The notes below the pieces were generated by a model that saw nothing but the letters and a program-made list of their open reading frames with translations, did not search any database and was not told the origin of the DNA. Position numbers and translations under genes: made by a program. From the IMG/VR virus record IMGVR_UViG_3300035670_000040, positions 62,001-126,000 of that record: a stretch of 64,000 nt of DNA. One strand, 5' to 3'. The stretch is from a virus. Each line of letters starts with the position of its first letter. The stretch's first letter is position 1. Shown piece by piece: positions 8,364 to 51,208 of the stretch.

Positions 8364-8756
8364 ATGAGTAGTTTTTTAAAAACATATAATAACATTAGAC
8401 AAAAATTGTTGTCAGAACAGGAAACTCAACAACAAGAAGATCAAATTCAATCAGAACCGATAGAAGGAATGGACGACACAGAAAATACTCCAGTTAAAAC
8501 AGGTCAGGAGGATGCAACAGTTTCTCCTAAATTAGATCCAGATGAAGAAGCATCAGCATTAAAGGAAGAAGAAAAGGGTCTTATAGAAAAAAATTGGATA
8601 GATAAAATCGTAAAATTATTAAATTTCTTGGATAAAGATAATGACAATGTAAAAGATATTATTAGTAAATTGTCAGAAGACACAGATAATATACAAGGCC
8701 AAAAACAAAAAATAGAAGAGCTACTCAATTCTATACCACCAGAAAAAACATCTTGA
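8364..8756 (+). CDS. Acidic unknown protein; candidate internal head protein
   Basis: 130 aa, very rich in Glu, Asp and Gln in the first half and helical in the second. The N-terminus is a short amphipathic stretch ending in L-S-E at residues 16-18, followed by a hydrophilic region. This resembles the capsid-targeting peptides of T4 internal proteins, which are cut by gp21 after (L/I)-x-E. First gene on the plus strand after the fibre. A TGTAAATA box (8350-8357) precedes it by six bases. Function is inferred only from the N-terminal motif. Confidence 0.55.
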   Translation: MSSFLKTYNNIRQKLLSEQETQQQEDQIQSEPIEGMDDTENTPVKTGQEDATVSPKLDPDEEASALKEEEKGLIEKNWIDKIVKLLNFLDKDNDNVKDIISKLSEDTDNIQGQKQKIEELLNSIPPEKTS

Positions 8757-8781
8757 CTTTTATAATAAATTTTCGTATATT
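8753..8781 (+). promoter_or_regulatory. Sigma70-like promoter before the kinase operon
   Basis: TTGACT at 8753-8758, a 17-base spacer, then TATATT at 8776-8781. The ATG at 8796 follows 14 bases after the -10 box. This is a close match to the bacterial housekeeping consensus and distinct from the late-type boxes in front of structural genes. Confidence 0.65.
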
Positions 8782-8795
8782 TTGTTTCTTAATAT

Positions 8796-9071
8796 ATGGA
8801 AAATTTAAACTTTACAGAAAATGAACTTTCGTACATCACAGAAAGTTTATTATTTTCACTGGGTTGTGATGTTTGTGCGAATTGGGACAGAGATGATATT
8901 GAAAATCTTTTTGAAATAGCACAAAAAATAAAAAATAATTGTTCTAATTTAGAAATGAACAATATTTTTATTCATAATCCTTTACTTGAAAACGGAAATA
9001 CGTATTTTGATGAAATAACACCAAAAATTATTTTAAATTTCCCTGAAATCTTAAAGGAGGATTTAGTATGA
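8796..9071 (+). CDS. Unknown protein, 91 aa
   Basis: Acidic, helical protein with two Cys close together ('LGCDVCANW', residues about 27-35). It is the first gene after a sigma70-like promoter and its stop overlaps the next start (ATGA at 9068-9071), so it is coupled to the kinase-like gene. No recognised family. Confidence 0.6.
   Translation: MENLNFTENELSYITESLLFSLGCDVCANWDRDDIENLFEIAQKIKNNCSNLEMNNIFIHNPLLENGNTYFDEITPKIILNFPEILKEDLV
9053..9060 (+). promoter_or_regulatory. Strong Shine-Dalgarno for the kinase-like gene
   Basis: AAAGGAGG, seven bases before the ATG at 9068. It is the clearest ribosome binding site in the window, inside the 3' end of the preceding gene. Confidence 0.7.
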
Positions 9072-9700
9072 AAATAGCAGTTTGTGGAACATCTTGTGTT
9101 GGTAAAAGTACATATATAAAAGATTTCTGTAAAGAATGGGCTTCTTATGAAAATCCAGAAAAAACATATAGAGATTTGATTAAATCAAAAAATTTAAACC
9201 ATTCATCCAATGGTGATGAGGATTCACAGAGACAAATTTTAAATGCTTTAATTGATCAGGCAACACAATTTTCAAAAAAGGAAAATATTATTTTTGATAG
9301 ATGTGTATTAGACAATATGGCATATACAAGTTGGCTTTATTTGAAGGATAAAGTATCGGATAAATTTTTAGACGAAACAAGAATCTTAGTAAGAGAAACA
9401 TTAAAACTTTATGATATTATATTTTTCATACCACTAACAAAGGTTTCACCTGTTGAATTAACAGAATCGGAATTGAGAGACAATGATCCAATTTATAGAG
9501 AAGAAATCGATAACATATTTAAAACATTTGTTGCTTCTTATCATAAAGCAGAAGGAAAAGTTTTCCCGTCAGAAGATTGTCCTGCTATTATTGAAATTTT
9601 TGGATCTCCACAGGAAAGAATACAAATGACTAAATTATATCTAACAGAACAAGGAACTCCTTATGGAGAAAATGAAAGTTTATTAACTGGAATATTTTGA
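9068..9700 (+). CDS. P-loop NTPase, nucleotide/nucleoside kinase-like
   Basis: Residues 7-14 (G-T-S-C-V-G-K-S) are a Walker A loop at the very N-terminus. 'IFDRCVLDNMAY' at about residues 77-88 looks like the D-R-x-x-x-D-N substrate/Mg site of deoxynucleoside-kinase-like and NadR/AAA_28-type phosphotransferases. The 210-aa length fits a single kinase domain. It has the best ribosome binding site in the region, suggesting high expression. Its place upstream of primase fits a role in nucleotide supply, but substrate cannot be read from the sequence; an NAD-related kinase is the main alternative. Confidence 0.7.
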   Translation: MKIAVCGTSCVGKSTYIKDFCKEWASYENPEKTYRDLIKSKNLNHSSNGDEDSQRQILNALIDQATQFSKKENIIFDRCVLDNMAYTSWLYLKDKVSDKFLDETRILVRETLKLYDIIFFIPLTKVSPVELTESELRDNDPIYREEIDNIFKTFVASYHKAEGKVFPSEDCPAIIEIFGSPQERIQMTKLYLTEQGTPYGENESLLTGIF

Positions 9701-9708
9701 GATAAATA
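9701..9708 (+). promoter_or_regulatory. Late-type promoter box
   Basis: GATAAATA directly after the kinase stop and 18 bases before the ATG at 9727. It matches NATAAATA. A late box here would fit the idea that the downstream protein is a head component. Confidence 0.5.
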
Positions 9709-9726
9709 AAAATATAATATAATAAT

Positions 9727-10590
9727 ATGAAAAAACTTAAATTCGATACTTTATTTGAATCTCTAATGTTAAATGAAGGAACTATCTCAAAACAACAGAG
9801 GTATGGTAATGTTAATTTTAATGTAGAAAAACTTATAAACAAACTAGAAGATTCTGAATCAGATGATTACAAATCAATCATTGATCCAGCAATAGAACGT
9901 TGGAAAGGTCAAGGTTATCTAGGAAACTTAACCACAGATAACATTAAATCTATGTTGGATGAAATAGCAACTCATTTAGAGGAAACTAAAAATGATGGAA
10001 TTGACTCTTTGAGATATTCTGATATAAATTCTTTAGTAGATAACGTAACTAGAGAAAGATTTAAGGGAAATAAAGAAGGGATGTCTACCTTAGCTACTAG
10101 ATGGAGTTCTAAATTGCAAGGATTGATTCAAAAGATGAAAGATACCCATGAACAGGGTTCAGGTGAACAAGAGATTTCTGATGAAAGCGATGAAGATTTT
10201 TCATCAGAACCACAGGATAATACATCTAAAAACGAAGGTATAAAGGAAAAAGTTCTACAGACTGTTCAAGCATCTGATTCCATGTCAAAAGAAGAAATAG
10301 TCCGTTATCTTATAGGAAGAATGGGTAGAAATGAAATATCTGCCGAAAGCATAGTAGATTCTTTGATTTCTTCTGGTGATTTAGTACAAAACGAGGAAGG
10401 AAATCTAGAAATAAGCAAGGAAACAAAGGAAATAGAGACTTTAGGTACTGTTTCAGATGAAGATTTTGATATTCAGGACGAAACAGGAATTCCATTCAGA
10501 GAAGATGATTTAACAGATGAAGACGAAGATGTTGATGCGGCATTCAGAGATGCAATTGAAAGCGATCCATATAAGAGTAGAGATTATTAA
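9727..10590 (+). CDS. Acidic protein with possible capsid-targeting N-terminus
   Basis: 287 aa. The N-terminus is amphipathic and ends in L-N-E at residues 15-17, like a gp21-cleaved capsid-targeting peptide. The middle is helical. A segment at about residues 180-235 has the helix-turn-helix rhythm of a winged-helix domain ('KEEIVRYLIGRMG...ISAESIVDSLI' style). The C-terminal 50 residues are extremely acidic. It is preceded by a late-type box, unlike its early-looking neighbours. A packaged DNA-associated head protein is one reading; a regulator with an acidic tail is another. No family recognised. Confidence 0.55.
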   Translation: MKKLKFDTLFESLMLNEGTISKQQRYGNVNFNVEKLINKLEDSESDDYKSIIDPAIERWKGQGYLGNLTTDNIKSMLDEIATHLEETKNDGIDSLRYSDINSLVDNVTRERFKGNKEGMSTLATRWSSKLQGLIQKMKDTHEQGSGEQEISDESDEDFSSEPQDNTSKNEGIKEKVLQTVQASDSMSKEEIVRYLIGRMGRNEISAESIVDSLISSGDLVQNEEGNLEISKETKEIETLGTVSDEDFDIQDETGIPFREDDLTDEDEDVDAAFRDAIESDPYKSRDY

Positions 10591-10619
10591 TTGACATTAT
10601 ATTAAAAAAATGATAAAAA
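10591..10619 (+). promoter_or_regulatory. Possible promoter before primase
   Basis: TTGACA (10591-10596) is a perfect -35 box directly after the previous stop. The -10 region (GATAAA at 10612 or TAAAAA at 10614) is weaker. Transcription would begin at about 10623-10626, inside the left arm of the hairpin described next. Confidence 0.4.
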
Positions 10620-10649
10620 GAGTCTGGCATGAAAATACCAGACTCTTTT
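10616..10649 (+). promoter_or_regulatory. Hairpin with the primase start codon in its loop
   Basis: A perfect 12-bp stem (10616-10627 with 10638-10649) encloses a 10-base loop containing the ATG at 10629. The right arm is followed by a T-rich run, so it also looks like an intrinsic terminator. Readthrough RNA from upstream would fold it; RNA started at the promoter just upstream would lack most of the left arm. This recalls T4 genes whose starts are hidden in long transcripts. Confidence 0.6.
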
Positions 10650-11588
10650 CTTTTAAAGAAATTTTATAACTATAGTTATAATCCAACTTTTAAAAAAAGT
10701 GAAGGAATTTATAATGCAGGATGTCCTGTGTGTAAAGAGGGTAAAAGTTTTGGAAAAAGAAAAAGATTGTTTTTTTATCCAAAAACTCAAAGTTTTTACT
10801 GTTTTAATTGTTCTAAGTCATGGAATGCTTTTTCTTGGATATTAGATGTATCTAATTCATCTATTGATGAATTAAAAAATGAAATTTTACATGAATCTTC
10901 ATCAGAAGAAGTTTTTGTTTTACAAAATATAAAACAAAAAGGGATTAAATCCAATGATTTACCATTAGATAGTATAAATTTAGAAGATAACTCTCAGGTT
11001 TTTTATTATAAAGACAATATCATACTTAAAAAATGTCTTTCTTATATAAAACAAAGAAAACTTGATACAGCAATAAACAAATGTGAATCGTTTTATATAA
11101 GTTTTAATGATTATATTCACAAAAATCGTTTATGTATACCATTTTATGAAAAAAACAAAGTTGTTTTTTATCAAACAAGATCTTTAGATGAGTCTTGTCC
11201 AAAATATCTAAGTAAAAGCGGAGGAGAAAAAGGTCTTTTTAATATAAACAATATTGATGAAGAATTTGATTATATCTTTTTAACAGAAGGACCAATAGAT
11301 TCTATGTTTATTAAAAACGGTGTCGGTGTGGCTGGATTGAGTTTAACGGATTTACAAAAAAATCAACTTTCAAAATATCCATTTCATAAAAAAATCTGGA
11401 TATTGGATAATCCATCTGTTGATGAAACTTCTAAAGAAAAAACAAAAGAATTTGTTTATAATAAAGAAAATGTTTATATGTGGCCGTTAGGTTGTAAATT
11501 TAAAGATTTGAACGAGTGGTGTATAAAACAAAATATAAATGGTATAGATTATAAATCTATTATAAATAACATTTATCCAACTAATTAA
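10629..11588 (+). CDS. DNA primase (zinc finger plus Toprim)
   Basis: Makes RNA primers for lagging-strand synthesis with the replicative helicase. A zinc-binding motif C32-x2-C35 ... C58-x2-C61 at the N-terminus matches DnaG/gp61-type primases. The Toprim core has the catalytic 'TEGPIDS' (Glu220) and a strand ending in 'WILDN' (Asp260), although the usual D-x-D is not intact. At 319 aa it is close to T4 gp61 (about 340 aa). The start codon lies inside a hairpin loop, and no other start fits before the zinc finger. Its stop shares a TTAA with the convergent gene. Family strong; equivalence to T4 gene 61 inferred. Confidence 0.85.
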   Translation: MKIPDSFLLKKFYNYSYNPTFKKSEGIYNAGCPVCKEGKSFGKRKRLFFYPKTQSFYCFNCSKSWNAFSWILDVSNSSIDELKNEILHESSSEEVFVLQNIKQKGIKSNDLPLDSINLEDNSQVFYYKDNIILKKCLSYIKQRKLDTAINKCESFYISFNDYIHKNRLCIPFYEKNKVVFYQTRSLDESCPKYLSKSGGEKGLFNINNIDEEFDYIFLTEGPIDSMFIKNGVGVAGLSLTDLQKNQLSKYPFHKKIWILDNPSVDETSKEKTKEFVYNKENVYMWPLGCKFKDLNEWCIKQNINGIDYKSIINNIYPTN

Positions 11589-12109
11589 CCTCCACTAGTT
11601 ACTGGTTCTTGATCTCTTAATTTTTTTGGAGCAAGAATAATAAATGAATTTAAAACTTCTTTTAATTTTTCAATTTCACCAGCAACTCTAGTTATACCAT
11701 CAGAGGTTTTTCTTGTTATACCACGAAGAAGTGAACCAGGTTTGTCGTTATCTGATAAAATTTTATGCAAACTTTCAGTGCTGTGAGGATCGTTTAAATA
11801 AGCAGCAAAGTCATTTAATTTATCCGAAAATTGTTTAATTTTTTTTATATTTTCTATATGAACTTCAATAGAAACTCCGTCTACATCAAATTCTTTTTCA
11901 GAAGTTTCTGGTTGTAAAGAATTATCAAAATCTTCTTTGTTTTTTTCTGGTGTAAAATTTTCTGGGTTTTGAGGAGGTTCATCTTGTTCTTTTAAGAGAC
12001 TTGAGAGAAATGTTTTAGCAAAAAGATTATTTGATTCAAATAATCCTTTTCCTGAATTTTTTTTAATAATTCTTTCTACTTTTAATTTTGTTTTTGATGA
12101 AGTCTTCAT
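11585..12109 (-). CDS. Unknown protein; candidate internal head protein
   Basis: 174 aa, on the minus strand inside a plus-strand replication operon. The N-terminal 41 residues are basic and amphipathic and end in L-K-E (39-41), followed by an acidic Pro/Glu/Asn-rich linker and a helical C-terminal domain. The L-x-E element resembles gp21 processing sites. It has its own late-type box (TATAAATA, 12127-12134), which fits late expression of a head protein. Stop codon shared with primase through TTAA. No family recognised. Confidence 0.55.
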   Translation of the reverse strand: MKTSSKTKLKVERIIKKNSGKGLFESNNLFAKTFLSSLLKEQDEPPQNPENFTPEKNKEDFDNSLQPETSEKEFDVDGVSIEVHIENIKKIKQFSDKLNDFAAYLNDPHSTESLHKILSDNDKPGSLLRGITRKTSDGITRVAGEIEKLKEVLNSFIILAPKKLRDQEPVTSGG

Positions 12110-12126
12110 TTATTTATATAGAATAA

Positions 12127-12134
12127 TATTTATA
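12127..12134 (-). promoter_or_regulatory. Late-type promoter box
   Basis: Minus strand reads exactly TATAAATA, the T4 late consensus, 17 bases before the ATG at 12109. A second exact copy (12111-12118) is only one base from the ATG, too close to serve as the promoter. Confidence 0.6.
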
Positions 12135-12158
12135 TTTACTCTTTTTTAATGTAAAAAC

Positions 12159-12187
12159 TTGATTTTTTATTTATTGTATTATATTAT
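12159..12187 (+). promoter_or_regulatory. Sigma70-like promoter before the glycosyltransferase-like gene
   Basis: TTGATT at 12159-12164, a 17-base spacer and TATTAT at 12182-12187, ten bases before the ATG at 12198. The TTG that could be read as an upstream start is part of this -35 box, which supports the ATG as the true start. Confidence 0.55.
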
Positions 12188-12197
12188 ATTAAAAATA

Positions 12198-12872
12198 ATG
12201 AAAAAAATAATAGCAGTGATTTGCACTTTAAGCAAGACAGTTGATGAATTTAAAGAAAGACCGATTTATAAAACATTAGAGAAACTGCATAAACTATATT
12301 CAGAATCGGAATTTGATGTTAGAATAATAAAAGATAATAAAAAAGGATTATCTGAAGTATATAACTCTTATATAACAGAAGAATATAAGAATAATATTTT
12401 AGTCTTTATGCATGATGATATAGAGATAAACGATCTTTTTTTAATTGAAAAATTAAACGAATCACCATATGTTGTTACTGGTTTGGCTGGATCTAAAACA
12501 TGTGATTTATCAAAAGATAAATTAGCATGGCACTTATGTTGTAAAAAAGAAGATATGATGGGTGAGGTTGCTCACAAAAAAAACAATTTTATATGGACAT
12601 CTGTATTTGGTCCAACCATTGGAAGGGTACTAATTATAGACGGGTTGTTTATCTCTATAAACGTCGAAGAAATTCTAAAAACAAATGCCAGATTTAATGA
12701 AAAATTTAAATTTCATCACTATGACATGGCTTTTTGTTTAAATTGTAATAAACAAAAAGTTAAGGTAGGAGTTTTGCCTATAACAGTTGTTCATCATGGG
12801 TTGGGTGATAGTATGTTGACACAAGATTGGGAAAACAGTAATATTATATTTAAAAAAGAATACAAATCATGA
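12198..12872 (+). CDS. Glycosyltransferase-like protein (GT-A/GT2 style)
   Basis: 224 aa from the ATG at 12198 (an upstream TTG extension would add 13 unlikely hydrophobic residues that overlap the promoter). It has the layout of a GT-A fold: N-terminal strand 'IIAVICTLSKT', a 'GLSEVYNSYI' segment typical of donor-site helices, then 'FMHDDIEIND' with Asp73-Asp74 as a D-x-D-like metal site. 'HHYDMAFCL' lies near the end. Likely transfers a sugar to phage DNA, a phage protein or host surface; the acceptor is unknown. Tightly coupled to the next gene (ATGA). Fold call moderate, substrate not determinable. Confidence 0.65.
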   Translation: MKKIIAVICTLSKTVDEFKERPIYKTLEKLHKLYSESEFDVRIIKDNKKGLSEVYNSYITEEYKNNILVFMHDDIEINDLFLIEKLNESPYVVTGLAGSKTCDLSKDKLAWHLCCKKEDMMGEVAHKKNNFIWTSVFGPTIGRVLIIDGLFISINVEEILKTNARFNEKFKFHHYDMAFCLNCNKQKVKVGVLPITVVHHGLGDSMLTQDWENSNIIFKKEYKS

Positions 12873-13399
12873 TATATAAACAAAATAAAATAACATTTAA
12901 TGGATTATTATTAAAACAAAAATTTGGTTATGATTTTTATGAGCAAAATTATAAACCAACTGGGGTTGTTGTAATATTTAGAGGAGAGATGGATATTCAA
13001 TTTGATAAGGATTGTTTTTTTCATGACTATCCTACATTTAATGATTCTATAAATATATGTTGGGAAATTCCCAACATAGGACAACTCGGTAATATTTGTT
13101 TCAAAAAGCTATTCTTATATAAGATAAAAGAATGTCTGAATGATTTAAATCTATACACTAAAGTTGAATTAAATAAAAATGATTCTATATTTGTGCATCA
13201 AGAAAATAAAAAAGCAAAAGAAGTAAATTTTTGTATGTTAAAACAACCAGATAATGTTTTCTCATTAGGATATATTGGATTAAACAATGAGAAACTTTCA
13301 TTAAATGATAAACAAATAGAAGAATTAAATGAAAAAATAAACGAATCTTTTTATGAAATAATTAAATCTATATCTCTAGAAATAATAAAACCATCATGA
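12869..13399 (+). CDS. Unknown protein, 176 aa
   Basis: Start overlaps the previous stop, and its own stop overlaps the next start, so it is locked into the replication operon. Composition is mixed alpha/beta with aromatic residues and two Trp/Cys-containing strands in the first half. No recognisable motif. Its position just before the gp62-like gene suggests a replication or nucleotide role, without direct evidence. Confidence 0.6.
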   Translation: MIYKQNKITFNGLLLKQKFGYDFYEQNYKPTGVVVIFRGEMDIQFDKDCFFHDYPTFNDSINICWEIPNIGQLGNICFKKLFLYKIKECLNDLNLYTKVELNKNDSIFVHQENKKAKEVNFCMLKQPDNVFSLGYIGLNNEKLSLNDKQIEELNEKINESFYEIIKSISLEIIKPS

Positions 13400-13779
13400 A
13401 TGATTCCATCTTTGATTTAATTAATTGGATTTTAAAAAAACCAAAAACAAAGTTAAATATACAAGAAAGCAGTTCGACCTATTTGTTAAATAGATGGTTA
13501 AGTATGGTTGGACCAGATCATTCAAATATTATCAATGAAACATTGAATAGGTGGTATTATACAAATTCAATGTATACAGATACAGAGTGTGTTGCTAGTT
13601 TATATAGAATTATAATTCCAAAAAACACTAAAAAAATAAATTATATAAAAAAGAATAAGGAAAAAAAACAAAAAAGCAATTCAGATGTATGCTTTGAACA
13701 CATACAAAGAGAAATATCTAAAAAAGAGATAGAAGAACAAAAAAGAATGCTTGAAGAATTAAATTCACTACATAAGTAA
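13396..13779 (+). CDS. 62: Clamp loader small subunit-like (gp62)
   Basis: 127 aa. The N-terminus reads like gp62 of T4-like marine phages: 'SIFDLINWI' (F-D-x-x-x-x-I), then a Tyr/Leu and 'NRWLSM' block, then 'NETLNRWYY', then a basic 'IPKNTKKINYIKK' stretch where relatives have a K-R-rich motif. gp62 partners gp44 to load the sliding clamp. The gp44 homologue is also in this window (43493-44431, minus), although not adjacent as in T4. The C-terminal 40 residues are charged and helical. Short and divergent, so the call rests on pattern rather than strong identity. Confidence 0.55.
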   Translation: MNDSIFDLINWILKKPKTKLNIQESSSTYLLNRWLSMVGPDHSNIINETLNRWYYTNSMYTDTECVASLYRIIIPKNTKKINYIKKNKEKKQKSNSDVCFEHIQREISKKEIEEQKRMLEELNSLHK

Positions 13780-13784
13780 AACAT

Positions 13785-14171
13785 ATGATACAAAGACCAA
13801 CAAACTTAGAAGACAAAATTGGTGGAATAGTTCAACTTGAACAATATCAGGGTCACGCACTGGAACTCGATGGATGGAAACTTACAAATGTATTGGACGA
13901 TATATTAATGGTTCAATATATAGATGTAAACGAAGACGGAACAGAAATAAAAAGAGGGTCTTTGTGGGTTCCTATAAATACAGTAACTTTTGTTTGGCGT
14001 GTAGGAAAGGTAATTTTAGCTGGTCCTAATTGCAAAACAGTTAAAGTTAATGATCACATTGTATTCCCTAATGATAAAGGAATACAAGCAGCTAACATAA
14101 ATGATATTAAAAATATTGTTTTCTTAAGTGAAAGCAGAATTTTTGGTGTGTGTGAACCGAAGTTCACATAA
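13785..14171 (+). CDS. GroES-like co-chaperonin (gp31-like)
   Basis: 128 aa. The C-terminal half has the GroES rhythm: 'VGKVILAGPNC', 'VKVNDHIVFPND', then a closing strand 'RIFGVCEP', equivalent to G-K-V...V-K-x-G-D-x-V-x-F...I-L-A-V in GroES. The middle 'WKLTNVLDDILMVQYIDV' starts the beta-barrel. T4 gp31 replaces GroES in folding of capsid protein gp23 by host GroEL, and this protein likely does the same for the gp23 at 47880-49322. Spaced only 5 bases from the previous gene. Fold moderately certain; the role is inferred. Confidence 0.6.
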   Translation: MIQRPTNLEDKIGGIVQLEQYQGHALELDGWKLTNVLDDILMVQYIDVNEDGTEIKRGSLWVPINTVTFVWRVGKVILAGPNCKTVKVNDHIVFPNDKGIQAANINDIKNIVFLSESRIFGVCEPKFT

Positions 14172-14173
14172 AA

Positions 14174-14560
14174 ATGAATAAACTTACTCTTAATGGACTT
14201 AAGTCTTTGTGTGAAACACATTTGGTTGAATTAAAATTTATAAGGAGAAATAAAACATCTTCCAATATTCCAACCAGAAGAATGTTATGCACAAGAGATA
14301 TGAGAATTTTGAATTCAGAAATTGGTAAACTAACATTTAATTTTGTAGTCCCTACAAAAGCAGCACCATACAATACAGTTTCAAAAAATCTTCTTACGGT
14401 TTTTGATATTATTTTCCAAGATTGGAGAAATATACCAGTAGAAAATACAATGGTTGTTATGGCTGTTCCAACAAATCCACAAAAATCATTTTGGGAATAT
14501 TTTGACAAAGTATTAAGAAACATGTCCAAAAAAGAAAAACAAAACTTTATAATAAAATGA
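14174..14560 (+). CDS. Unknown protein, 128 aa
   Basis: Two bases after the previous stop, and its own stop overlaps the next start, so operon membership is clear. The N-terminus ('LTLNGLKSLCETHLVELKFIRRN') and the Arg-rich 'TRRMLCTRDMRIL' segment suggest a small mixed alpha/beta protein that might bind nucleic acid. Late residues have 'WEYFDKVLRNM'. I do not recognise a family; an antisense frame of similar length is a shadow. Confidence 0.6.
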   Translation: MNKLTLNGLKSLCETHLVELKFIRRNKTSSNIPTRRMLCTRDMRILNSEIGKLTFNFVVPTKAAPYNTVSKNLLTVFDIIFQDWRNIPVENTMVVMAVPTNPQKSFWEYFDKVLRNMSKKEKQNFIIK

Positions 14561-14922
14561 ATATTTCATCTTCTCTTTTAGAAAAAACATGTAGTTCGTT
14601 GTTGCAACGAAATGTTAATTTTATTATTAAAAATAAAATAATAAAAAAAGGAAAGATTGAATTATTTGTTCAAAGAAATTTTTATTTAGTTTTTCATATT
14701 TTAACAGAAAGCAAAAAAAAGGAAAAATTTGAAATACCTATACCATTTTCATTAGAAAATCACGAAGAAGATGGTTTAGTTTATTTTGATTATAGATTTA
14801 AAACAATTTCAAAATATTATCCAGAAAGCTTAGATGTTTTACAAAAAATATTTGACAAAAATAAAAAAAATAATAAATTTGGAGATTCTATCTTAATGAT
14901 AGAAACAATAAAACATGAATAA
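14557..14922 (+). CDS. Unknown protein, 121 aa
   Basis: Coupled to the previous gene (ATGA-type overlap) and overlapping the next by eight bases. Lys- and Phe-rich, alternating strands and a helical C-terminus, no Cys pair clusters or catalytic motif. Function unknown; location among replication genes is the only clue. Confidence 0.6.
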   Translation: MNISSSLLEKTCSSLLQRNVNFIIKNKIIKKGKIELFVQRNFYLVFHILTESKKKEKFEIPIPFSLENHEEDGLVYFDYRFKTISKYYPESLDVLQKIFDKNKKNNKFGDSILMIETIKHE

Positions 14923-15163
14923 AGAACCGTTAATTTGTTATAATTTGTTTAATTCAAATTATTATAGTATTTTTGCAGATGATTTTAAACTATTATCAGA
15001 AGGACAAATTCCACTGAAGAAAAAACCATCATCTTCTTGCAAGAAATGTTATGGAAGAGGCTATTCTGGAAAAAATACAACAGATTTTACTTATATACCA
15101 TGTTCTTGCTTGAAAAAACAAATAAATGTAGATATCCTCTTAACAAGGAATGCAAACATTTAA
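14915..15163 (+). CDS. Small zinc-finger protein
   Basis: 82 aa with a C-x2-C ... C-x-C set in 'CKKCYGRGYSGKN' and 'YIPCSCLKK' (residues about 42-70). The G-R-G-Y-S-G element resembles a DnaJ-type central zinc repeat, and the pattern fits one bound zinc ion. Overlaps the end of the previous gene by 8 bases and the start of the helicase by 14, so it is likely co-translated with the helicase. Role unknown; an adaptor for replication or transcription is plausible. Confidence 0.6.
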   Translation: MNKEPLICYNLFNSNYYSIFADDFKLLSEGQIPLKKKPSSSCKKCYGRGYSGKNTTDFTYIPCSCLKKQINVDILLTRNANI

Positions 15164-42950: not shown

Positions 42951-42965
42951 GAAAAACTAAATATT

Positions 42966-43502: not shown

Positions 43503-44431
43503 AAAGTATTTTCTATCGAATAGATACAACAATAGAAATTAATTTCGTGATCAGTTACAAAATTATCTTTATACATATATTCACCAATATCCAATAAAAT
43601 CATCTTTTTAAGATTATCTGATAAATCAGATTCATAGAATATCTCGAAAAGATTTTTTAAAAGTATTTGATAATTTGAATTAAAAAGATTCTCAGATTCG
43701 ATAATATATTTTCTTATATTTAAAGAAGAAGTTTTCTGAATTATCTTTTTATATACAGAATTAGCAAAATCCAATACTTCATCATTTTCTAGAATAAAAA
43801 GATTTCCTGATATAGAGAATTTTTGTAAATCGTTTATTGTTTTTCTTATATCAGGAAATCTTGAAGATACGAAATTATTTATTTTCTTTTTTTCATCATC
43901 ACTTATTTGAATTTTCTCTTTAACAAGTATTGATACACATCTTTTAATAACATCATCTATATTAGATTTTAATTCAAACATAGAACACCTTGATTTAATC
44001 GGTTCTATAATTTTTTTAATATAGTTCGCTGTTAATATAAATCTTGTCGAATTATGAAATTCCTCCATGACATTTCGAAGAGTCTTTTGAGCATCCAAAG
44101 TCATTCCACAAAACTCATCGAGTATGATAACCTTTTTTCTTCCATCAAATGATCTAACCTGAGAAAAAGACATTACCTTACCACGAATTGTGTCTATACC
44201 ATTCTCATCGCTTGCATTGATGTATAAATATTGACAATTCAAAACATCATTAACAAGTATTTTTGCTAAAGTAGTTTTTCCTGTACCAGCATCACCATAA
44301 AACAAAAGGTTTGGTATATCCTCTTCTAGTGAAAGAAAGTATTTCTTTGTTTCTTCATCTAAGATAAGATCATCTAGTTTTTTTGGTCTGTATTTTTCAA
44401 CCCACAAATCGTTATAATGAGATATTTTCAT
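43493..44431 (-). CDS. 44: Sliding clamp loader large subunit gp44
   Basis: 312-aa AAA+ ATPase of the RFC/gp44 family that opens the DNA polymerase clamp. RFC box 'WVEKYRPKKLDDLI' (10-23), Walker A 'GDAGTGKT' (46-53), Walker B with Asp105-Glu106 ('IILDEFCG'; the usual D-E-A/C-D is D-E-F-C), sensor 1 'FILTANY', and the S-R-C arginine-finger motif (147-149). Near T4 gp44 length (319 aa). The probable partner gp62 is 30 kb away on the other strand, unlike the adjacent T4 pair. Confident. Confidence 0.92.
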   Translation of the reverse strand: MKISHYNDLWVEKYRPKKLDDLILDEETKKYFLSLEEDIPNLLFYGDAGTGKTTLAKILVNDVLNCQYLYINASDENGIDTIRGKVMSFSQVRSFDGRKKVIILDEFCGMTLDAQKTLRNVMEEFHNSTRFILTANYIKKIIEPIKSRCSMFELKSNIDDVIKRCVSILVKEKIQISDDEKKKINNFVSSRFPDIRKTINDLQKFSISGNLFILENDEVLDFANSVYKKIIQKTSSLNIRKYIIESENLFNSNYQILLKNLFEIFYESDLSDNLKKMILLDIGEYMYKDNFVTDHEINFYCCIYSIENTLKV

Positions 44432-44523
44432 TGAATTTTTACAATATTACTATATTATTATCTCAATGTCCATTAAAAATGGAAAAATATTCAAAAGCAA
44501 GTAAATATATATAGTTCATAAAC

Positions 44524-45000
44524 ATGGATAATTCAAACGAAATAGATTCTATTATAGATCAGTTGAAGAATGATTCTGTTCAAAATTCAACAAGTTCAAA
44601 AAGAAAACCAACACTAACAGGATTGACTGATGAAAATGTAAACGATTATGTTTATAATAAAACAGCAGAAGTCATTGAATCTGGTTTAGATGCTATAAGC
44701 AATTTAAAAGACTCCGTAATGACAGGACAAGACCCAAAGGAGATATCGGCCTTGGCGCAGCTTATAGGAGCAACAACAAAGGCAATTGATGGTCTTAATA
44801 AGATTAATCTACAGATTAAACAACATAAGAATAATATTGAGGTTGCTAAACTTGAAAACGAAAGTTTAAAGAAAATGCAAACATCAACAACAAATGTTCT
44901 TGCTATAGCAACAAGAGAAGAAGTAATGAAAAAACTTTTTGATAAAAATCCAAGAACAGATAAAGTTGAGCTTATAGAGGATGCTGTTGTTGAAGATTAA
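44524..45000 (+). CDS. 16: Small terminase subunit-like protein (gp16)
   Basis: 158 aa, all helical. The centre ('AEVIESGLDAISNLKD', 'GQDPKEISALAQLIGATTKA', 'IDGLNKINLQIKQ') has the pattern of gp16-type small terminases of T4-like phages, in which paired coiled-coil helices form a ring that recognises DNA and regulates the large terminase. Near T4 gp16 length (164 aa). No gp17 is in the window, so the usual 16-17 pairing is broken or lies elsewhere. Family by pattern, moderate. Confidence 0.55.
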   Translation: MDNSNEIDSIIDQLKNDSVQNSTSSKRKPTLTGLTDENVNDYVYNKTAEVIESGLDAISNLKDSVMTGQDPKEISALAQLIGATTKAIDGLNKINLQIKQHKNNIEVAKLENESLKKMQTSTTNVLAIATREEVMKKLFDKNPRTDKVELIEDAVVED

Positions 45001-46034
45001 GAAGATGTTAATCCAGCCTTGTCCATACCTCTATAGAGTTTAGCGAATCTTTCATCTGTAGGTGGATATTTTTCTTTGAATGCTTTAAATGCTTCGTCAT
45101 TTTTAACCATCTGTTTAATTTCAGTAACAGTTTTTCCAATCATTGATCTAGGACCATAACCAAATCCTGCTGGCGGTGGTGTTCTTTGCCCTAACATGGT
45201 TCCACCACCTTTTTGAAAAGGAGGTGTGGTTAATTTAACATTATCTTCTTTTTCTTTTAAGGTAGAGTATTTTTGAGATTCTACTGGATCAATAGTTACT
45301 AATGATCTAAACGGATTTCCTTCTCTATCAAAGAAGAAAATTACAGATTTATCTCTAGATTCAAGACCAGCAATTTGTTTTCCTGATGTTTCACTATCAG
45401 TTGAAATATCAGTCTTTGATTTTGGTTTATAATATTTTACAATTTTTGGTTTAATGAAGTTTCTTTGTGCAACCTCACCCATATTATAAAAATCCTGTTC
45501 TGTAATTCCATATTCTGATGGATTTTGAAGAATATCTAGTTTGGTTAAAAGAAACGCAATATTAAAATAAAGACCGTGCCACTGTTGAAGATTTTCAATT
45601 AATTGTTTAGAAACATTCGGTCTTAATTTAGATTCACGTATTTTCTGTGTATTATAATATTTAAATTGAATTACATTATTTTCTTTAACCTGATCAAATG
45701 AATGATAAGGTGAAGTTGTTGCATTTATAAGACCTTCTACCAATTTTCTTTTTGTCTTTTTGAGTTCCAAATCGGGTAAATTATTAATTAAATTGAATAA
45801 ATTAATAGCTTTATCAATATCATCATTTCCAGATAAAATTGATTTTGATAATTCAGCAAATACAGCCTTGTCTTTTCCACCAGCAAAAACTGCTTTTGCT
45901 TTTTTTATAGCATCTTTCTGTGTTATTGATGCTCTTTTAATTCCAGTTTGCTCTACATCAGCCATCTTTGTTTTAAGACGACTTCTTGCCATTTCATTTA
46001 CCAAATCTTTATAATAATCATTAAACAAATTCAT
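44997..46034 (-). CDS. Unknown protein, 345 aa; candidate internal head protein
   Basis: Basic helical N-terminal half, then a beta region, then a Gly/Pro-rich linker ('TPPPAGFGYGPRS') and a helical end. The extreme N-terminus is amphipathic with Tyr/Phe and ends in L-V-N-E (11-14), like a capsid-targeting peptide. Stop shared with the small terminase through TTAA. In the same direction as the head genes. No family recognised. Confidence 0.5.
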   Translation of the reverse strand: MNLFNDYYKDLVNEMARSRLKTKMADVEQTGIKRASITQKDAIKKAKAVFAGGKDKAVFAELSKSILSGNDDIDKAINLFNLINNLPDLELKKTKRKLVEGLINATTSPYHSFDQVKENNVIQFKYYNTQKIRESKLRPNVSKQLIENLQQWHGLYFNIAFLLTKLDILQNPSEYGITEQDFYNMGEVAQRNFIKPKIVKYYKPKSKTDISTDSETSGKQIAGLESRDKSVIFFFDREGNPFRSLVTIDPVESQKYSTLKEKEDNVKLTTPPFQKGGGTMLGQRTPPPAGFGYGPRSMIGKTVTEIKQMVKNDEAFKAFKEKYPPTDERFAKLYRGMDKAGLTSS

Positions 46035-46051
46035 ACTATATATTTACCAAA

Positions 46052-46285
46052 TTACCAGTACAGGTTGTGATGTAATGCTTCATCAAGAAAACCTTCTTGT
46101 TTCAAATAATCTTTAAGAGAATTTAACAAAGATTTATCAACAACACTATTAGAAATCATTTTTACATTAAAATCTTGAAATGTAGTATTATCTATTGTAA
46201 CGGTAAAATCAGTTCCTTTATATGTCAATTTAACTTTATATGGTCCTTTTGGATTTTTGATTTTTTGGATTGATTTTTTATTCAT
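46052..46285 (-). CDS. Unknown small protein, 77 aa
   Basis: I start at the ATG at 46285; the frame runs further upstream but that part would be a hydrophobic extension overlapping the divergent gene. The product begins with a basic stretch and then a small alpha/beta fold ('PYKVKLTYKGTDFTVTIDN'). 17 bases upstream of the 345-aa gene, same strand, probably one operon. Function unknown. Confidence 0.5.
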   Translation of the reverse strand: MNKKSIQKIKNPKGPYKVKLTYKGTDFTVTIDNTTFQDFNVKMISNSVVDKSLLNSLKDYLKQEGFLDEALHHNLYW

Positions 46286-46370
46286 CGTATGAATTTTAAA
46301 AATAAAAAACTGTATTGTCAAGTCAAAGATTTTTCTTGAAGTTACGATACAGGTAATATAATTATAATAT

Positions 46371-47822
46371 ATGGAAATTATTAAAAATTGTGCATGTGGA
46401 TGTGGAGAAATATTAAAAAACCCAAAAAACAAATATGTAGTAGGTCATTCAAACAGAGATCCAGAAGTAAAAGCTAAAAAAGAAAAAGCTTATTTGGAAA
46501 AATATGGCGTAACAAATCCTAGCAAATCCAAAGATATTAAAACTAAAAAAGAAGAAACCAATTTAAAAAAATTTGGAACAAAATATGCAGCACAAAGTAT
46601 AGATGTAAAAAACAAATTAAAAGAAAAATGGTTAGAAAAGTATGGAGTAGATAATCCTTCAAAATTAGATCACATCAAAACTTTAATTTCAGAAAAAGTA
46701 AAAGCTACAAGAGAAGAGGTAAGAGAAAAATCACAGAAATCATTTTATAAAACTATCCTAAATAGGTTAAAAGAAGAAGGGAAAATGGGAACATTAGAAC
46801 CTTTGTTTGATATAGATGATTATCAAGGAAGACTTTTAAAATACCCATTTAAATGTAGTGTTTGTTCAACTGTATCAGAAACCAATTTAAGATTATCATC
46901 AGAATCATTGAGATGTTTTACATGTAACCCAAAGATAACAACAGGGGGACAATCTTTATTAGAAAGAGATATATGTGATTTTGTAAAAATATTAGATCCA
47001 GATATTAAAGAACAAAATAGAGATATTATATCACCATTAGAATTAGATATAGTTTCAGAAAAATATAAATTAGCAATAGAAATAGATGGATTATATTGGC
47101 ATTCTGAAATAACAGGAAGAAAAACAAAATTCTATCATTCACTAAAAAGAAAAAATACCAATAATAGTGGATATAAATTAATACAAATATTTGAGGATGA
47201 ATGGATAGAAAAACAAAAAATTGTAAAATCCAGAATTAAAAATTTATTTAATAAGAACCTTAAAAAAATATATGCTAGAAAATGCGTAGTTAAAGAAATA
47301 TCATCAGAAATTAAATCTAAATTTCTAAAAAAATACCATATACAAGGAAATGATAAATCTAATTTACACTTAGGTTTATTTTATAAAAATAGATTGGTGT
47401 CTGTTATGACATTTAATCCTTATAGAGTTGCACTAGGAAACAAAGCAAAAGAAAATTGTTATGAATTAACTAGGTTTTGTTCAAACTTTAACTTCTCTGT
47501 CATTGGTGGTGCATCAAAAATATTAAAATATTTTGAAACTAAATATAATCCAAAAGAAATAATTTCTTATGCTGATAAAAGATGGTCAGATGGAAATCTT
47601 TATAAAATACTAGGATTTAATTTAGTAGGAGAAACTCAACCTAATTATTGGTATATCATAAAAAACCAAAGAAAACATAGATTTGCTTACAGAAAATCTG
47701 AACTATCAAAGTTGTTAAAGACATATGATGGAAATCTATCAGAATGGCAAAATATGCAACTAAATGGATATGATAGAATATGGGATTGTGGAAGTTTTAA
47801 GTTTGAAAAAACTTATACATAG
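46371..47822 (+). CDS. Homing endonuclease-like protein (EDxHD/Vsr-like nuclease)
   Basis: 483 aa. N-terminal Zn-type 'CACGCG' followed by three 'L(E/K)K(Y/F)G(V/T)xNPSK' DNA-binding repeats (NUMOD-like), a second C-x2-C pair ('CSVCSTV', 'CFTCNP'), then a nuclease core at about residues 223-260: 'LELDIVSEKYKLAIEIDGLY' and 'GYKLIQIFEDEW', the EDxHD/Vsr-like family seen in phage homing enzymes. A conserved C-terminal domain follows ('GGASKILKYFE...SYADKRWSDG'). Stands alone on the plus strand directly beside the capsid gene; a mobile gene by nature. Target site unknown. Confidence 0.8.
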   Translation: MEIIKNCACGCGEILKNPKNKYVVGHSNRDPEVKAKKEKAYLEKYGVTNPSKSKDIKTKKEETNLKKFGTKYAAQSIDVKNKLKEKWLEKYGVDNPSKLDHIKTLISEKVKATREEVREKSQKSFYKTILNRLKEEGKMGTLEPLFDIDDYQGRLLKYPFKCSVCSTVSETNLRLSSESLRCFTCNPKITTGGQSLLERDICDFVKILDPDIKEQNRDIISPLELDIVSEKYKLAIEIDGLYWHSEITGRKTKFYHSLKRKNTNNSGYKLIQIFEDEWIEKQKIVKSRIKNLFNKNLKKIYARKCVVKEISSEIKSKFLKKYHIQGNDKSNLHLGLFYKNRLVSVMTFNPYRVALGNKAKENCYELTRFCSNFNFSVIGGASKILKYFETKYNPKEIISYADKRWSDGNLYKILGFNLVGETQPNYWYIIKNQRKHRFAYRKSELSKLLKTYDGNLSEWQNMQLNGYDRIWDCGSFKFEKTYT

Positions 47823-47830
47823 AAAATAAA

Positions 47831-47860
47831 AAACCCGTTGATATTTCTATCAACGGGTTT
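47831..47860. terminator. Bidirectional terminator between homing endonuclease and capsid gene
   Basis: Perfect 13-bp stem (47831-47843 with 47848-47860), four-base loop, GC core CCCGTTG, A-run on the left and T-run on the right. It sits between two convergent genes and would stop transcription from both. Confidence 0.9.
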
Positions 47861-47879
47861 TTTTGAGGATTCTATCAAC

Positions 47880-49322
47880 TTAGAGATAGAGACGACCAGC
47901 AGTTTGAGCAACATTGTCGGTACCAAGTCCCTTAACGATGATAAGGTGGTAGTATAAGCTCGCACCGAAGATATGATCAACAACACCATATCTAGTCATA
48001 AGACCAACTCTTGGGGAGAAGTCGTTAGGACCGATAGTGCGCTGAATCATAACCGGAATATACGGACAATATACAATACCTGTATCATAATATTCAGAAC
48101 CTTTGTAACCTAAAAGTGCATACTCAATTGCATCAGCTTGGCTTCTTGCGCCAGCAAGGAGTTGAGCTTCGGTACGAGTATCACGGTAGATGGTGAAACG
48201 TCCACCAACAGTACCAACCTTGGCAATACCAGTAGGTTGAGTGTTGACGTTGCCGTTTACAGGCATCCATTGAAACTCTGGTAACATCTCCAAGATTGTG
48301 CAAACGCGAGGAGTGGCAACGATGAAGTTGGCAGATCCACGGCGGTTACGAATTGCGATGCGGTTAGCCTCGACAATAATCTTGCTGTAGAAGTCACGGT
48401 TGCGTTCGCCAAGCCAACGGGCATCAGCGGAAGCAGCGTACCAGAAACTATATCCATTACCTTTACCTGCATTAAGAGCGATCTGGACCATTCTCATGAT
48501 CATTTCACGGTCGATTTCGGCCTGAATTTCATACGACATAGCGTTTGTTAATTCAGAATCAACATCGAGTCCGTTCATGTTCTTCATGTCCTGCTCAAGT
48601 TCAACAGACCAGCGAGCAGCAAGACGACGAGTCTTAGCTTCAACAGCTGTTTTAGCGAACTCAAGAGAAACTTGAGGAATATTTCCAGTTAACTCAAACT
48701 GACTTAAAAGTTGAGCAACACCTTGATCTTCGGAGACGTACTTGAAGTCGTCATGACCGGAGAGGAATGCACCACTAGTGCCAGTAAAGCGGGTATCAAG
48801 GTTTTGATAACCAAGTTCACCACCGTTATTTTGGCGTGGAACGCCATCATTTCCGACGGTTTGTGGTCCAAGTGAGCCGTATCCGTCAACACCTGTTCCA
48901 CCTAAACTTGCGGTATCATACTTGTAACGCATAGCGAATGCCAAACCAACTGGACCAGCCATTGGCTGAACACCGACGATTTCGTTAGTGATAAGCTCAG
49001 GGAATGTACGACGAACCATTGGTATTAATACCTTTGGAAGTCTTGCATCACCTGTTGCATAACTATCACTGTTAGAAAGACCAGTCTGACCAGGTGCACT
49101 TCCACCGTAAACACCACCGAGAACTCCTGCGGTATTTCCAGCTTCTTCAATGCACCAACGCTCTTGGTTTTCCATGAGAATAGCCGTAGCGAGACGAGAA
49201 TGCTCGTCTTCGATAGGCTTCACACGATCTGAACTATAGTTCAAAACGGGTGCCCATTTCTCTAAGAGAGTGTTAGCACGACCTTTGTCGATAAATCCTG
49301 TTGAGGGTTTGATTGTATTCAT
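47880..49322 (-). CDS. 23: Major capsid protein gp23
   Basis: 480 aa, the main shell protein of the head. 'LPKVLIPMVRRTFPELITNE' and 'VGVQPMAGPVGLAFAMRYKY' match the conserved N-arm of T4-type gp23. The N-terminus 'LATAILMENQERWCIEEAG' carries a gp21 cleavage site (I58-E-E60, cut before Ala61), so about 420 residues would remain. The nucleotide composition is unlike its neighbours (about 47% G+C in a 60-base stretch I counted, versus 25-30% typical), with C-ending codons, consistent with selection for high expression. Terminated by a strong hairpin. Confidence 0.95.
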   Translation of the reverse strand: MNTIKPSTGFIDKGRANTLLEKWAPVLNYSSDRVKPIEDEHSRLATAILMENQERWCIEEAGNTAGVLGGVYGGSAPGQTGLSNSDSYATGDARLPKVLIPMVRRTFPELITNEIVGVQPMAGPVGLAFAMRYKYDTASLGGTGVDGYGSLGPQTVGNDGVPRQNNGGELGYQNLDTRFTGTSGAFLSGHDDFKYVSEDQGVAQLLSQFELTGNIPQVSLEFAKTAVEAKTRRLAARWSVELEQDMKNMNGLDVDSELTNAMSYEIQAEIDREMIMRMVQIALNAGKGNGYSFWYAASADARWLGERNRDFYSKIIVEANRIAIRNRRGSANFIVATPRVCTILEMLPEFQWMPVNGNVNTQPTGIAKVGTVGGRFTIYRDTRTEAQLLAGARSQADAIEYALLGYKGSEYYDTGIVYCPYIPVMIQRTIGPNDFSPRVGLMTRYGVVDHIFGASLYYHLIIVKGLGTDNVAQTAGRLYL

Positions 49323-49406
49323 ATGTTTTTTATTTTACCTTTCTTTTTTTTGGATTATGTTTTTCTAGAAAAGAACCATTCTCTTCTACAACTTTAAATC
49401 TTTTTT

Positions 49407-50294
49407 TTATGATCTTTTGAGTTCTGTTAAATAATCAGTTACAGGGTTATAATCCTGTAAATTTGGTTTTACAGATTCAACTACTAATGAAGGAACTTTT
49501 GCATCTTTTGATACAGATTTTGTCTTTGCTTGTTCAGCAAGAACTGTTCTTTCTTCGTTTTCGTCTTTCTCAAACATATCAACAACATAATTGAAATTTT
49601 CTTCAATATATTCTGGAGATTTGTCACATAAAATTTTTCTTAAATATTCCTTTTTGGATGAACCCATTCCTTTTGTTTTCTTTTCAAGAAGAAGTGCTGA
49701 ATTTGATTGTTCTACAAGTGTAGAAAGTTTAGCATTTTCATTGTAGGATTCATTTAGTTTTTCTTGAAGTTCATTAATTTGATTATTTCCTTTTTTAAGA
49801 ACTTCTTTTACATTTTCATTTAATTGTTCAGGATCAAGATTAAGCATGTTCTTGATTTTTTCCAATTGAGTCCTTGCGTGTGTATTTGCAACAGCTTCTT
49901 CTAATTGTTGAACTGGCATTTGTTTTTCTAAATAAAGATCCAGATAATTGCTAATTTGATTAATTAAATTATTACTAAATTGTTCAGCTTTTTCATTCAA
50001 AGAATTTTTATAAAGGTCTATAACTTCTTCAAGCTTTGTTGTATGGTTTTCATTGATTGCTTCAACTACTTGCTTTAACTTATTGGTGTGATCAAGATCC
50101 AATGCTTCTATTAAGTTCTGAAGTTTTTCTGCGTGTTCTTCATCTTGTTTTAAAAGAGCAGATTCTAATTGTAAAGAAACTTTTGTTTCTACCTTTTCAT
50201 TTACCGCTTTGTTAAAAGCTTCTGCAATTGCGGAAGCGGTTTCTTCATTAAGAACGGTTTGATCCAAATTTTTGAGAATCGATGAAATATCCAT
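49407..50294 (-). CDS. 22: Prohead scaffold protein gp22
   Basis: 295 aa, almost wholly helical with long coiled-coil stretches ('LEEVIDLYKNSLNEKAEQF'), Glu/Lys/Asn-rich. It lies between gp21 and gp23, the T4 position of gene 22. The N-terminus 'SILKNLDQTVLNEE' contains L-N-E (15-17), a gp21 site. gp22 forms the prohead core that shapes the shell and is digested by gp21 before DNA packaging. An 84-base gap, probably with the gp23 promoter, follows. Confident by position and composition. Confidence 0.85.
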   Translation of the reverse strand: MDISSILKNLDQTVLNEETASAIAEAFNKAVNEKVETKVSLQLESALLKQDEEHAEKLQNLIEALDLDHTNKLKQVVEAINENHTTKLEEVIDLYKNSLNEKAEQFSNNLINQISNYLDLYLEKQMPVQQLEEAVANTHARTQLEKIKNMLNLDPEQLNENVKEVLKKGNNQINELQEKLNESYNENAKLSTLVEQSNSALLLEKKTKGMGSSKKEYLRKILCDKSPEYIEENFNYVVDMFEKDENEERTVLAEQAKTKSVSKDAKVPSLVVESVKPNLQDYNPVTDYLTELKRS

Positions 50295-50307
50295 AAGTTA
50301 TATAATT

Positions 50308-50526
50308 TTATTTACCTTTCTTTGATACAGTTTTGTTATTTTTTTTACAGTCACTACAATGTTTTTTCTTTTTTTTACAATCATCACAGCAATATTCTTT
50401 TTCTTTAACTATTTTTTTTACCTTTTGTTTTACCTTTTCTGTCAAAATAGTTTTCAATAGAGAATCCGCTAAAGAATAATTTTTTTCACAAATAGCTGTT
50501 ATAAATTTTGAAATGTCATTTCTCAT
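50308..50526 (-). CDS. Small prohead-core-like protein with Cys cluster
   Basis: 72 aa between gp21 and gp22. The N-terminal part ('DISKFITAICEKNYSLADSL') is amphipathic helix as in small core proteins of T4-like phages (gp67/gp68-like position). The C-terminal part is Lys-rich with C-C-x-x-C and C-x-x-C ('YCCDDCKKKKKHCSDCKK'), a likely zinc site that T4 gp67 lacks. Role in the prohead core is inferred from location. Confidence 0.55.
   Translation of the reverse strand: MRNDISKFITAICEKNYSLADSLLKTILTEKVKQKVKKIVKEKEYCCDDCKKKKKHCSDCKKNNKTVSKKGK
50309..50316 (-). promoter_or_regulatory. Late-type promoter box before gp22
   Basis: Minus strand reads GGTAAATA, 14 bases before the gp22 ATG. One change from NATAAATA. 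Confidence 0.4.
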
Positions 50527-50536
50527 ATTTTAATAC

Positions 50537-51208
50537 TTACAAAGTTTTGAGTGCATTAATAAACGCAATTACTTGTTCTTTTAAATATTGATTTTTATTG
50601 TTTCTTGGAAGATTACCAATATTTTTTTCAAATCTTTCAAACAATGGTTCAAAATTTCCATTTTCAGTTAAAATCCATTGTTTTGATTCAAGAATACCAT
50701 TAACAAATGCTGTTGGAACGGATGGATCAGCAACAACATCAACAGCAACAAGTCTAAAGTCTGAAACTTTATTGTATTGACCATCTGAATCAAGTCTTCC
50801 TAATGCTCTAGAAGAAACACCTAATTTAACTCCATCAAGAATAAGTGATCTAACAATTTGTCCCATAGGGGTAGAAAGAATTCTGGATTTTCCTTCAAAT
50901 ATATTTCCGTTTTGTTTTAATTCTGTCACCATATGACAGATTCTTTCTAGATTTATTTCTGGCGAGGAAGGATGGTTTAATTCTCCTGTAGACCTTTTTC
51001 CTAAAATCATCTCGTTAGAATATCTATCGACCTCTTTAACCATTTCTTCCAATGGATAAATTCTTTTGTTTTTGTTAGCTTCATTAGCCATCAAAAATGG
51101 ACCATGAATAAATAAATTAGAAGGAGAGTTCCTGTTTTTTTCTTCAACTAAATATTGAACTTCATATGTTGGTTCTTCAACTAAAAGTCGATAGGCGTTA
51201 TTCTGCAT
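50537..51208 (-). CDS. 21: Prohead protease gp21
   Basis: 223 aa serine protease of the herpesvirus-assemblin-like fold that matures the head by cutting gp22, gp23 and internal proteins after (L/I)-x-E. His79 in 'STGELNHPSS' and Ser132 in 'LGVSSRALG' are the expected catalytic pair, followed by 'DVVADPSVP'. The N-terminal 'YRLLVEEPTYE' offers its own L-x-E site. Full T4 length (212 aa). A TGTAAATA box lies 15 bases upstream. Confident. Confidence 0.92.
   Translation of the reverse strand: MQNNAYRLLVEEPTYEVQYLVEEKNRNSPSNLFIHGPFLMANEANKNKRIYPLEEMVKEVDRYSNEMILGKRSTGELNHPSSPEINLERICHMVTELKQNGNIFEGKSRILSTPMGQIVRSLILDGVKLGVSSRALGRLDSDGQYNKVSDFRLVAVDVVADPSVPTAFVNGILESKQWILTENGNFEPLFERFEKNIGNLPRNNKNQYLKEQVIAFINALKTL

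Follow-up and report, generated by a model that had tools for sequence, protein, structure and literature searches.

Candidate head-loading signals in an uncultured T4-like phage: conserved N-termini that close with [LIV]-x-E

The DNA analyzed here (the window) is a 64,000-nucleotide stretch running from base 62001 to base 126000 of a viral metagenome record 130,820 bases long (IMG/VR IMGVR_UViG_3300035670_000040), and it belongs to an uncultured, T4-like phage. Four of its proteins, named 8364, 9727, 11585 and 44997 after the lower coordinate of each gene, begin with peptides ending in [LIV]-x-E, and these peptides are probably propeptides that target the proteins to the head and are cut off by the prohead protease gp21. 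The evidence lies in the conservation of the sites among relatives, the recurrence of such peptides on unrelated protein bodies, and the presence of late-type boxes ahead of the genes. In T4, gp21 cleaves after L/I-x-E, and the propeptides of the internal proteins, which are 10-19 residues long, end in this motif; in IPIII, residues 4 and 7 are important for targeting and residues 8 and 10 for processing (PMC9026906). In the T4 sequences inspected, ipII and ipIII start with MKTYQEFIAE/A (the slash marks the known or predicted cut here and below), and ipI has ITE/A at residues 17-19.

With gp21 as the query, 72 related contigs were retrieved. The comparison set consists of the window record (G000) and nine large relatives, one of which (G012) is a near-duplicate of another (G013) and was dropped from the main counts; these cover 1478 proteins from the window phage and eight relatives. 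The database contigs are fragmentary and partly redundant. Genes given as "own" carry coordinates of the whole record. No nucleotide match for the first 25 kb of the window was found among 50,697 phage records, and among cultured phages, cyanophages have the closest gp23 sequences, at approximately 34% identity.

Conserved sites and late-type boxes of the four candidates

The N-termini read MSSFLKTYNNIRQKLLSE/Q in 8364, MKKLKFDTLFESLMLNE/G in 9727 and MNLFNDYYKDLVNE/M in 44997, and the longer peptide of 11585 ends in ...LFAKTFLSSLLKE/Q. The motifs that a preliminary description of this DNA had located in these proteins and in gp21, gp22 and gp23 are all at the places it gave, that of 44997 being strictly V-x-E instead of L/I-x-E. 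The predicted propeptides of 8364 (18 residues) and 9727 (17) fall within 10-20 residues ending in L/I-x-E; that of 44997 (14) has V at P3, which is I in the relative G001, and that of 11585 has approximately 41 residues, compared with 16 in the homologue from G014. Aromatic residues stand at F4 and Y8 in 8364, F6 and F10 in 9727, F30 and F34 in 11585, and F4 and Y7 in 44997. None of the four proteins has a significant match to a known family in Pfam, PHROGs or PADLOC (best matches at E = 0.0018 or worse, to uncharacterized families), and a Foldseek search of 44997 against the PDB returned nothing at E ≤ 0.001. AlphaFold models of 11585 (37 sequences, predicted local distance difference test score 65, predicted template modeling score 0.31) and 44997 (3 sequences, predicted local distance difference test score 56) are too weak for claims about the fold; both show a helix spanning the predicted cut region and, beyond it, a stretch modeled at low confidence.

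Homologues of 11585 were found in 117 relatives. Among 55 non-identical sequences, the Glu is present in every one; 54 have L, I or V at P3, and 54 have Q or A at P1′. The site sits in an FxxxFxxxLLxE segment with a variable-length linker downstream, and the distant homologue from G014 starts almost at the peptide (MSKNIFKNQFISILNE/D). The 9727 family retains [LMI]-x-E in eight of eight sequences (LNE, MSE, LNE, MNE, ITE, LNE, LQE, LKE) and has 12 invariant residues, E11 and E17 among them. For 44997 the sites are VNE, VNE and IQE (Glu in three of three), and for 8364 they are LSE and, in its relative, LAE (two of two). Outside the window, own 8954 shows [LIV]-x-E in every aligned N-terminus. 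In genome-wide ortholog comparisons, which are not independent of one another, 63% of sites at residues 8-20 were kept, versus 38% of internal sites. Lack of L-x-E conservation in alignments had been named as a ground for rejecting the initial proposal; [LIVM]-x-E is kept in the homologues found for all four proteins.

The box [AG]TAAATA, derived from the phage's own structural genes together with knowledge of T4, precedes each of the four genes (Table 1), which points to their expression late in infection. It also precedes gp21, gp22, the sheath gene, own 8954, own 61079 and own 129005, and it stands ahead of 29 of 132 genes, as against 1.9% of coding 45-mers. TTGAC-type promoters take its place ahead of the adjoining genes 8796 and 10629 (primase-like). 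The box is retained in 50 of 54 homologues of 11585, 19 of 22 of own 8954 and all six of own 61079. Two of the four candidates lie among replication genes; the preliminary description had placed some of them there, with late-type boxes of their own.

Portable peptides and the question of chance

In four relatives, a family beginning with MSLFxxxxxxxLEEMA has a body homologous to that of 9727 (hhalign E = 1.2e-5, residues 53-229) and occupies the same neighborhood as 9727, near a homologue of 11585. The first 19 residues of this family match those of 44997 (MNLFNDYYKDLVNEMARSR versus MSLFEDLYQQQLEEMARST, 53% identity, E = 2e-4), and the alignment ends at residue 19. 44997 and 9727 are unrelated, and 44997 has only residues 1-19 in common with the MSLF family, so that peptide and body vary independently. 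The same behavior is apparent at larger scale: 108 pairs of proteins with unrelated bodies share at least eight of residues 2-19, compared with 4-6 pairs for internal segments of equal length, and 56 pairs share at least nine, compared with 0-1.

The largest group carries the tag M(K/R)(S/T)KDxxLLEEAY (typically MKSKDQxLLEEAY), which contains LEE/A, comparable to T4 MKTYQEFIAE/A. A pattern scan of IMG/VR yielded 49 distinct proteins with the tag, which fall into 34 body clusters; 38 of these proteins have a further [LIVM]-x-E right behind the tag, and domains seen among the bodies include NUDIX (E = 6e-19), GP88 (E = 4e-35) and PGDYG (E = 2e-7). A late-type box precedes 22 of 49 tagged genes of the relatives, versus 77 of 574 other open reading frames at the same loci (p = 4e-7). 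The expectation that one N-terminal peptide would recur on otherwise unrelated proteins thus holds for 44997 and the 9727 gene slot, and on a large scale across the relatives taken together; for 8364 and 11585, no such recurrence could be shown. A tblastn search of 11585, 44997, own 8954, own 61079, the MSLF family and the MKSKDQ tag against the 50,697 phage records gave no match.

Two further kinds of N-terminus were observed. DUF6267 proteins of 880-900 residues (L095:12951-15593 and L103:12845-15547) start with MNFKEFFSE/A, close to the T4 sequence MKTYQEFIAE/A, and one of the two has a weak cytidylyltransferase-like domain match. In the window record, a 108-residue protein (G000:C1:2521-2847; MKTEDFKNLEQVYESINKKE...) bears what looks like a degenerate MKSKDQ-type tag, with a late box present.

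L-x-E is a weak motif, expected near some N-termini among a hundred proteins, and chance has to be weighed accordingly. In the window genome by itself, [LI]-x-E occurs at 21 per 1000 at residues 8-12 and 14 per 1000 further in (odds ratio 1.5, p = 0.18); this count is not above chance, and the evidence originally offered was thus insufficient by itself. Across the 1478 proteins, the frequency is 26.8 per 1000 positions at residues 8-12 versus 12.2 at residues 31-100 (odds ratio 2.2, p = 2e-20), and the odds ratio is still 2.0 without one recurrent tag. No rise is seen in 520 cellular proteins from low guanine-cytosine sequences processed with the same gene caller (11.2 versus 12.7 per 1000); an apparent enrichment at residues 13-18 of the cellular set was due to the gene used for fetching the control loci, without which the values are 11.9 at residues 8-12 and 12.0 at 13-18. 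A T4-like layout, defined as an aromatic residue near position 4, a hydrophobic residue near 7 and [LIV]-x-E ending by 19, occurs in 77 of 1478 phage proteins and 3 of 487 cellular ones, with a mean of 25 in shuffled phage N-termini. Chance carriers do exist: own 8084 (an exonuclease, LNE at 14) and own 10245 (a head-closure protein, LNE at 13) were rejected as targets, the motif being retained in only two of five and none of six relatives, respectively. The presence of the motif is therefore no proof alone, and the conservation test discriminates. Given the conservation, the portability and the late boxes of the four, coincidence is a very improbable explanation overall, and it is strongly disfavored for 9727, 11585 and 44997.

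Table 1. Candidate proteins, late-type boxes, head genes and tagged genes. Positions are those of the window unless stated otherwise.
Feature	Position	Strand	Details
8364, 130-residue acidic protein	8364-8756	+	Predicted propeptide 1-18 (8364-8417), cut after L16-S-E18; mature charge -16
Late-type box GTAAATA, 8364	8351-8357	+	13 nt ahead of start
9727, 287-residue acidic protein	9727-10590	+	Predicted propeptide 1-17 (9727-9777), cut after L15-N-E17; mature charge -33
Late-type box ATAAATA, 9727	9702-9708	+	25 nt ahead of start
11585, 174-residue protein, lineage-wide	11585-12109	-	Predicted propeptide 1-41 (11987-12109), cut after L39-K-E41; mature protein mildly acidic
Three overlapping [AG]TAAATA boxes, 11585	12111-12139	-	8-30 nt ahead of start
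44997, 345-residue basic protein	44997-46034	-	Two genes past gp23, same strand; predicted propeptide 1-14 (45993-46034), cut after V12-N-E14; charge +17
Late-type box GTAAATA, 44997	46041-46047	-	13 nt ahead of start
gp23, major capsid protein	47880-49322	-	PF07068 (Gp23) E = 3e-91; site conserved in relatives
gp23, predicted 60-residue propeptide	49143-49322	-	Cut after I58-E-E60, A next
gp22-like scaffold	49407-50294	-	Weak T4_CASP match (E = 0.002), expected position; conserved L15-N-E17
Small gp68-like core protein, tentative	50308-50526	-	C-terminal part basic; position between gp21 and gp22, composition
gp21, S77 prohead protease	50537-51208	-	PF03420 (Peptidase_S77) E = 1.8e-28; PHROG head maturation protease E = 1.4e-59
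own 61079	61079-61345 of the record (G000:C1:61079-61345; L005:4079-4345)		655 nt left of the window; 88 residues
MKSKDQxLLEEAY-tagged small proteins of relatives	Loci L083, L085, L105, L114, L115, L139, L294-L335		At least 34 unrelated proteins; late-type box frequent

Head genes, protease specificity and competing explanations

The window contains a T4-like head cluster on the minus strand, consisting of gp21, a tentative gp68-like gene, gp22 and gp23. Profile E-values make the identity of gp21 and gp23 secure, and gp22 has only a weak match. The protease itself carries L9-V-E11, and gp22 retains [LI]-x-E in eight of eight relatives. In gp23, the window phage and most of its relatives have IEE, LEE or LNE as the predicted site at the aligned position, and G014 has INE a few residues downstream. 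These sites make the specificity of the lineage's protease readable, and the tripeptides of the candidates are of the same kind; together with the presence of the S77 protease, gp22 and gp23, this agreement supports head targeting.

Independent support for the reading of the sites comes from own 61079, which is laid out as MNKLQQIILNVIQE/MDWGGVYGSTSG...DSYATG...PMQKRTFPELINQ, then KKKKKNGKQKQKQRK: 14 residues that close with IQE come first, next a copy of the N-arm of mature gp23, and last a tail rich in lysine. Past the IQE, the protein matches gp23 residues 65-114, just after the gp23 cut (50% identity, E = 3e-12), so that the end of its predicted propeptide coincides with the gp23 cut site. 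Small genes of this plan adjoin the same conserved neighbor in seven genomes, in one of which (G009) the Glu is lost, and their GGxFG/GGxYG motif tends to track the form found in the gp23 of their own genome. The initial count of at least four such proteins was an underestimate, as own 8954, own 61079 and own 129005 outside the window share the same properties. By composition, own 129005 and own 61079 (both +10) look like DNA-associated internal proteins and own 8954 (-44) like an acidic core component.

In the mechanism envisaged, the four proteins would be made late in infection with N-terminal propeptides of the lengths given above, and an amphipathic helix in the propeptide would dock on the prohead's scaffold core, which is built on gp22. 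Cleavage after [LIV]-x-E by the gp21-type protease within the prohead would then set the mature protein free inside the head, as happens with T4 internal proteins. Among the four, the basic protein 44997 would best fit a DNA-associated internal protein and is perhaps injected; for 8364, 9727 and 11585, a role in the core or scaffold is more likely. The suggestion that all four are new internal head proteins finds partial support in the conserved late-gene peptides and the S77 protease, but the very acidic 8364 and 9727 and the mildly acidic 11585 may be scaffold-like and uninjected.

Several points weigh against targeting and cleavage. Independent homologues number one for 8364 and two for 44997; P3 is V in 44997 and M in some homologues of 9727; and the peptide of 11585, at approximately 41 residues, exceeds the T4 targeting sequence. 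In addition, of 18 records tested, namely 16 contigs bearing tags and two others, only two had a recognizable S77 gene, the contigs being mostly fragments. Such a gene is present in tag-bearing G001, G007, G009, G012 and G013.

A quite conceivable alternative, though short of even, is that the candidates are prohead core or scaffold proteins like T4 gp67 and gp22, which would be targeted and cut but would mostly leave the head, being neither internal to the mature virion nor injected. The strong acidity of 8364, 9727 and own 8954 past the cut is in keeping with this, as are the predicted helical character of 11585 (low confidence) and its occurrence in all but one of the relatives compared. 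It fits less well with the scarcity of further internal [LI]-x-E sites (four in 8364, three in 9727 and one in 11585, versus 15 in gp22) and with the basic character of 44997, which is like that of the T4 internal proteins. The N-termini could also be portable signals for another role, in the replication or late-transcription apparatus, at a host structure or in the translation start region, with the Glu residing uncut in a binding helix. Such a role would accommodate the MKSKDQ tag, which is without the aromatics at positions 4 and 7 that matter in T4, as well as the lack of an S77 gene in most tag-bearing contigs tested and the location of two of the four genes among replication genes. It appears unlikely, however, in view of the late-type boxes, the P3/P1 pattern shared with the gp22 and gp23 sites of the lineage, and the start of the gp23-arm mimic at the equivalent of the gp23 cut.

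Head loading of this kind is known from T4; what is new is the proteins, the peptides and the breadth. The T4 proteins IPI, IPII, IPIII and Alt share the short N-terminal [LI]-x-E propeptide, unrelated bodies and an S77 protease (PMC9026906, PMC3012670), whereas here the bodies match no known family nor, for those searched, any of the 50,697 phage records, the peptide sequences differ, V and M also occur at P3, the leader of 11585 is longer and basic, and the relatives carry far more cargo types. The T4 core proteins gp22, gp67 and gp68 are acidic or helical and cut by gp21, and in composition they are like 8364, 9727 and own 8954; the candidates, however, have no sequence relation to known core families and few internal cut sites. 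In phage P1, the N-terminal signal of DarB suffices for bringing a cargo protein into the head (PMC9024508), as proposed here, although sequence and phage are unrelated and an S77 cut after Glu is predicted in the present case. In phiKZ and SPN3US, whose inner-body and ejection proteins have cleaved propeptides, many head proteins are cut after x-x-E by a distant relative of gp21, and there is ejected cargo (PMC9026906, PMC5694885); the specificity in phiKZ is S/A-x-E and the propeptides of SPN3US are mostly much longer, in contrast to the short portable tags described here.

Since the relatives carry such peptides on dozens of unrelated proteins, the lineage probably packs a large unrecognized protein cargo, which it perhaps injects. 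The chances are roughly balanced that this amounts to a lineage-wide, expanded head-loading system, in which tag classes such as MKSKDQxLLEEAY and MxLFxxxxxx[LV]xE would bring dozens of unrelated, often late-type cargoes into the head for delivery with the DNA, and the gp23-arm protein could anchor DNA or cargo at the inner shell. In T4, only a handful of proteins are packed and injected, and they were discovered one at a time. Should these N-termini prove to be loading signals, the proteins carried inside the heads of uncultured T4-like phages would become readable from sequence, with cargo genes recognizable by tag and late box even where the body is unfamiliar. Early host-takeover and counter-defense proteins could then be searched for in this way, and laboratory phages used for protein delivery would gain new loading peptides.

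Neighboring genes and insertions in relatives

The tentative gp68-like gene gave no significant family match in Pfam or PHROG profile searches and is not listed in the preliminary description. Within the head cluster, between gp23 and 44997, a 483-residue protein is encoded on the opposite strand (46371-47822), with weak-to-moderate matches to DUF7487 (E = 7e-11) and to the Mom DNA modification protein (E = 2e-7); it is not a plain HNH endonuclease. The position of 44997 just past gp23 raised gp24 as a candidate identity, which was rejected as 44997 has no Pfam or PHROG match to Gp23.

In G013 (L137:2303-4081), and likewise in G012, gp21 contains an in-frame interruption of approximately 370 residues with intein-splicing similarity (E = 9e-9) and weak LAGLIDADG similarity, and this insert in the prohead protease is a probable intein. 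In G012, the large subunit of ribonucleotide reductase (L123:9725-12502) is also split by a probable intein, which has a LAGLIDADG homing endonuclease (E = 2e-17); the gene is uninterrupted in the window phage.

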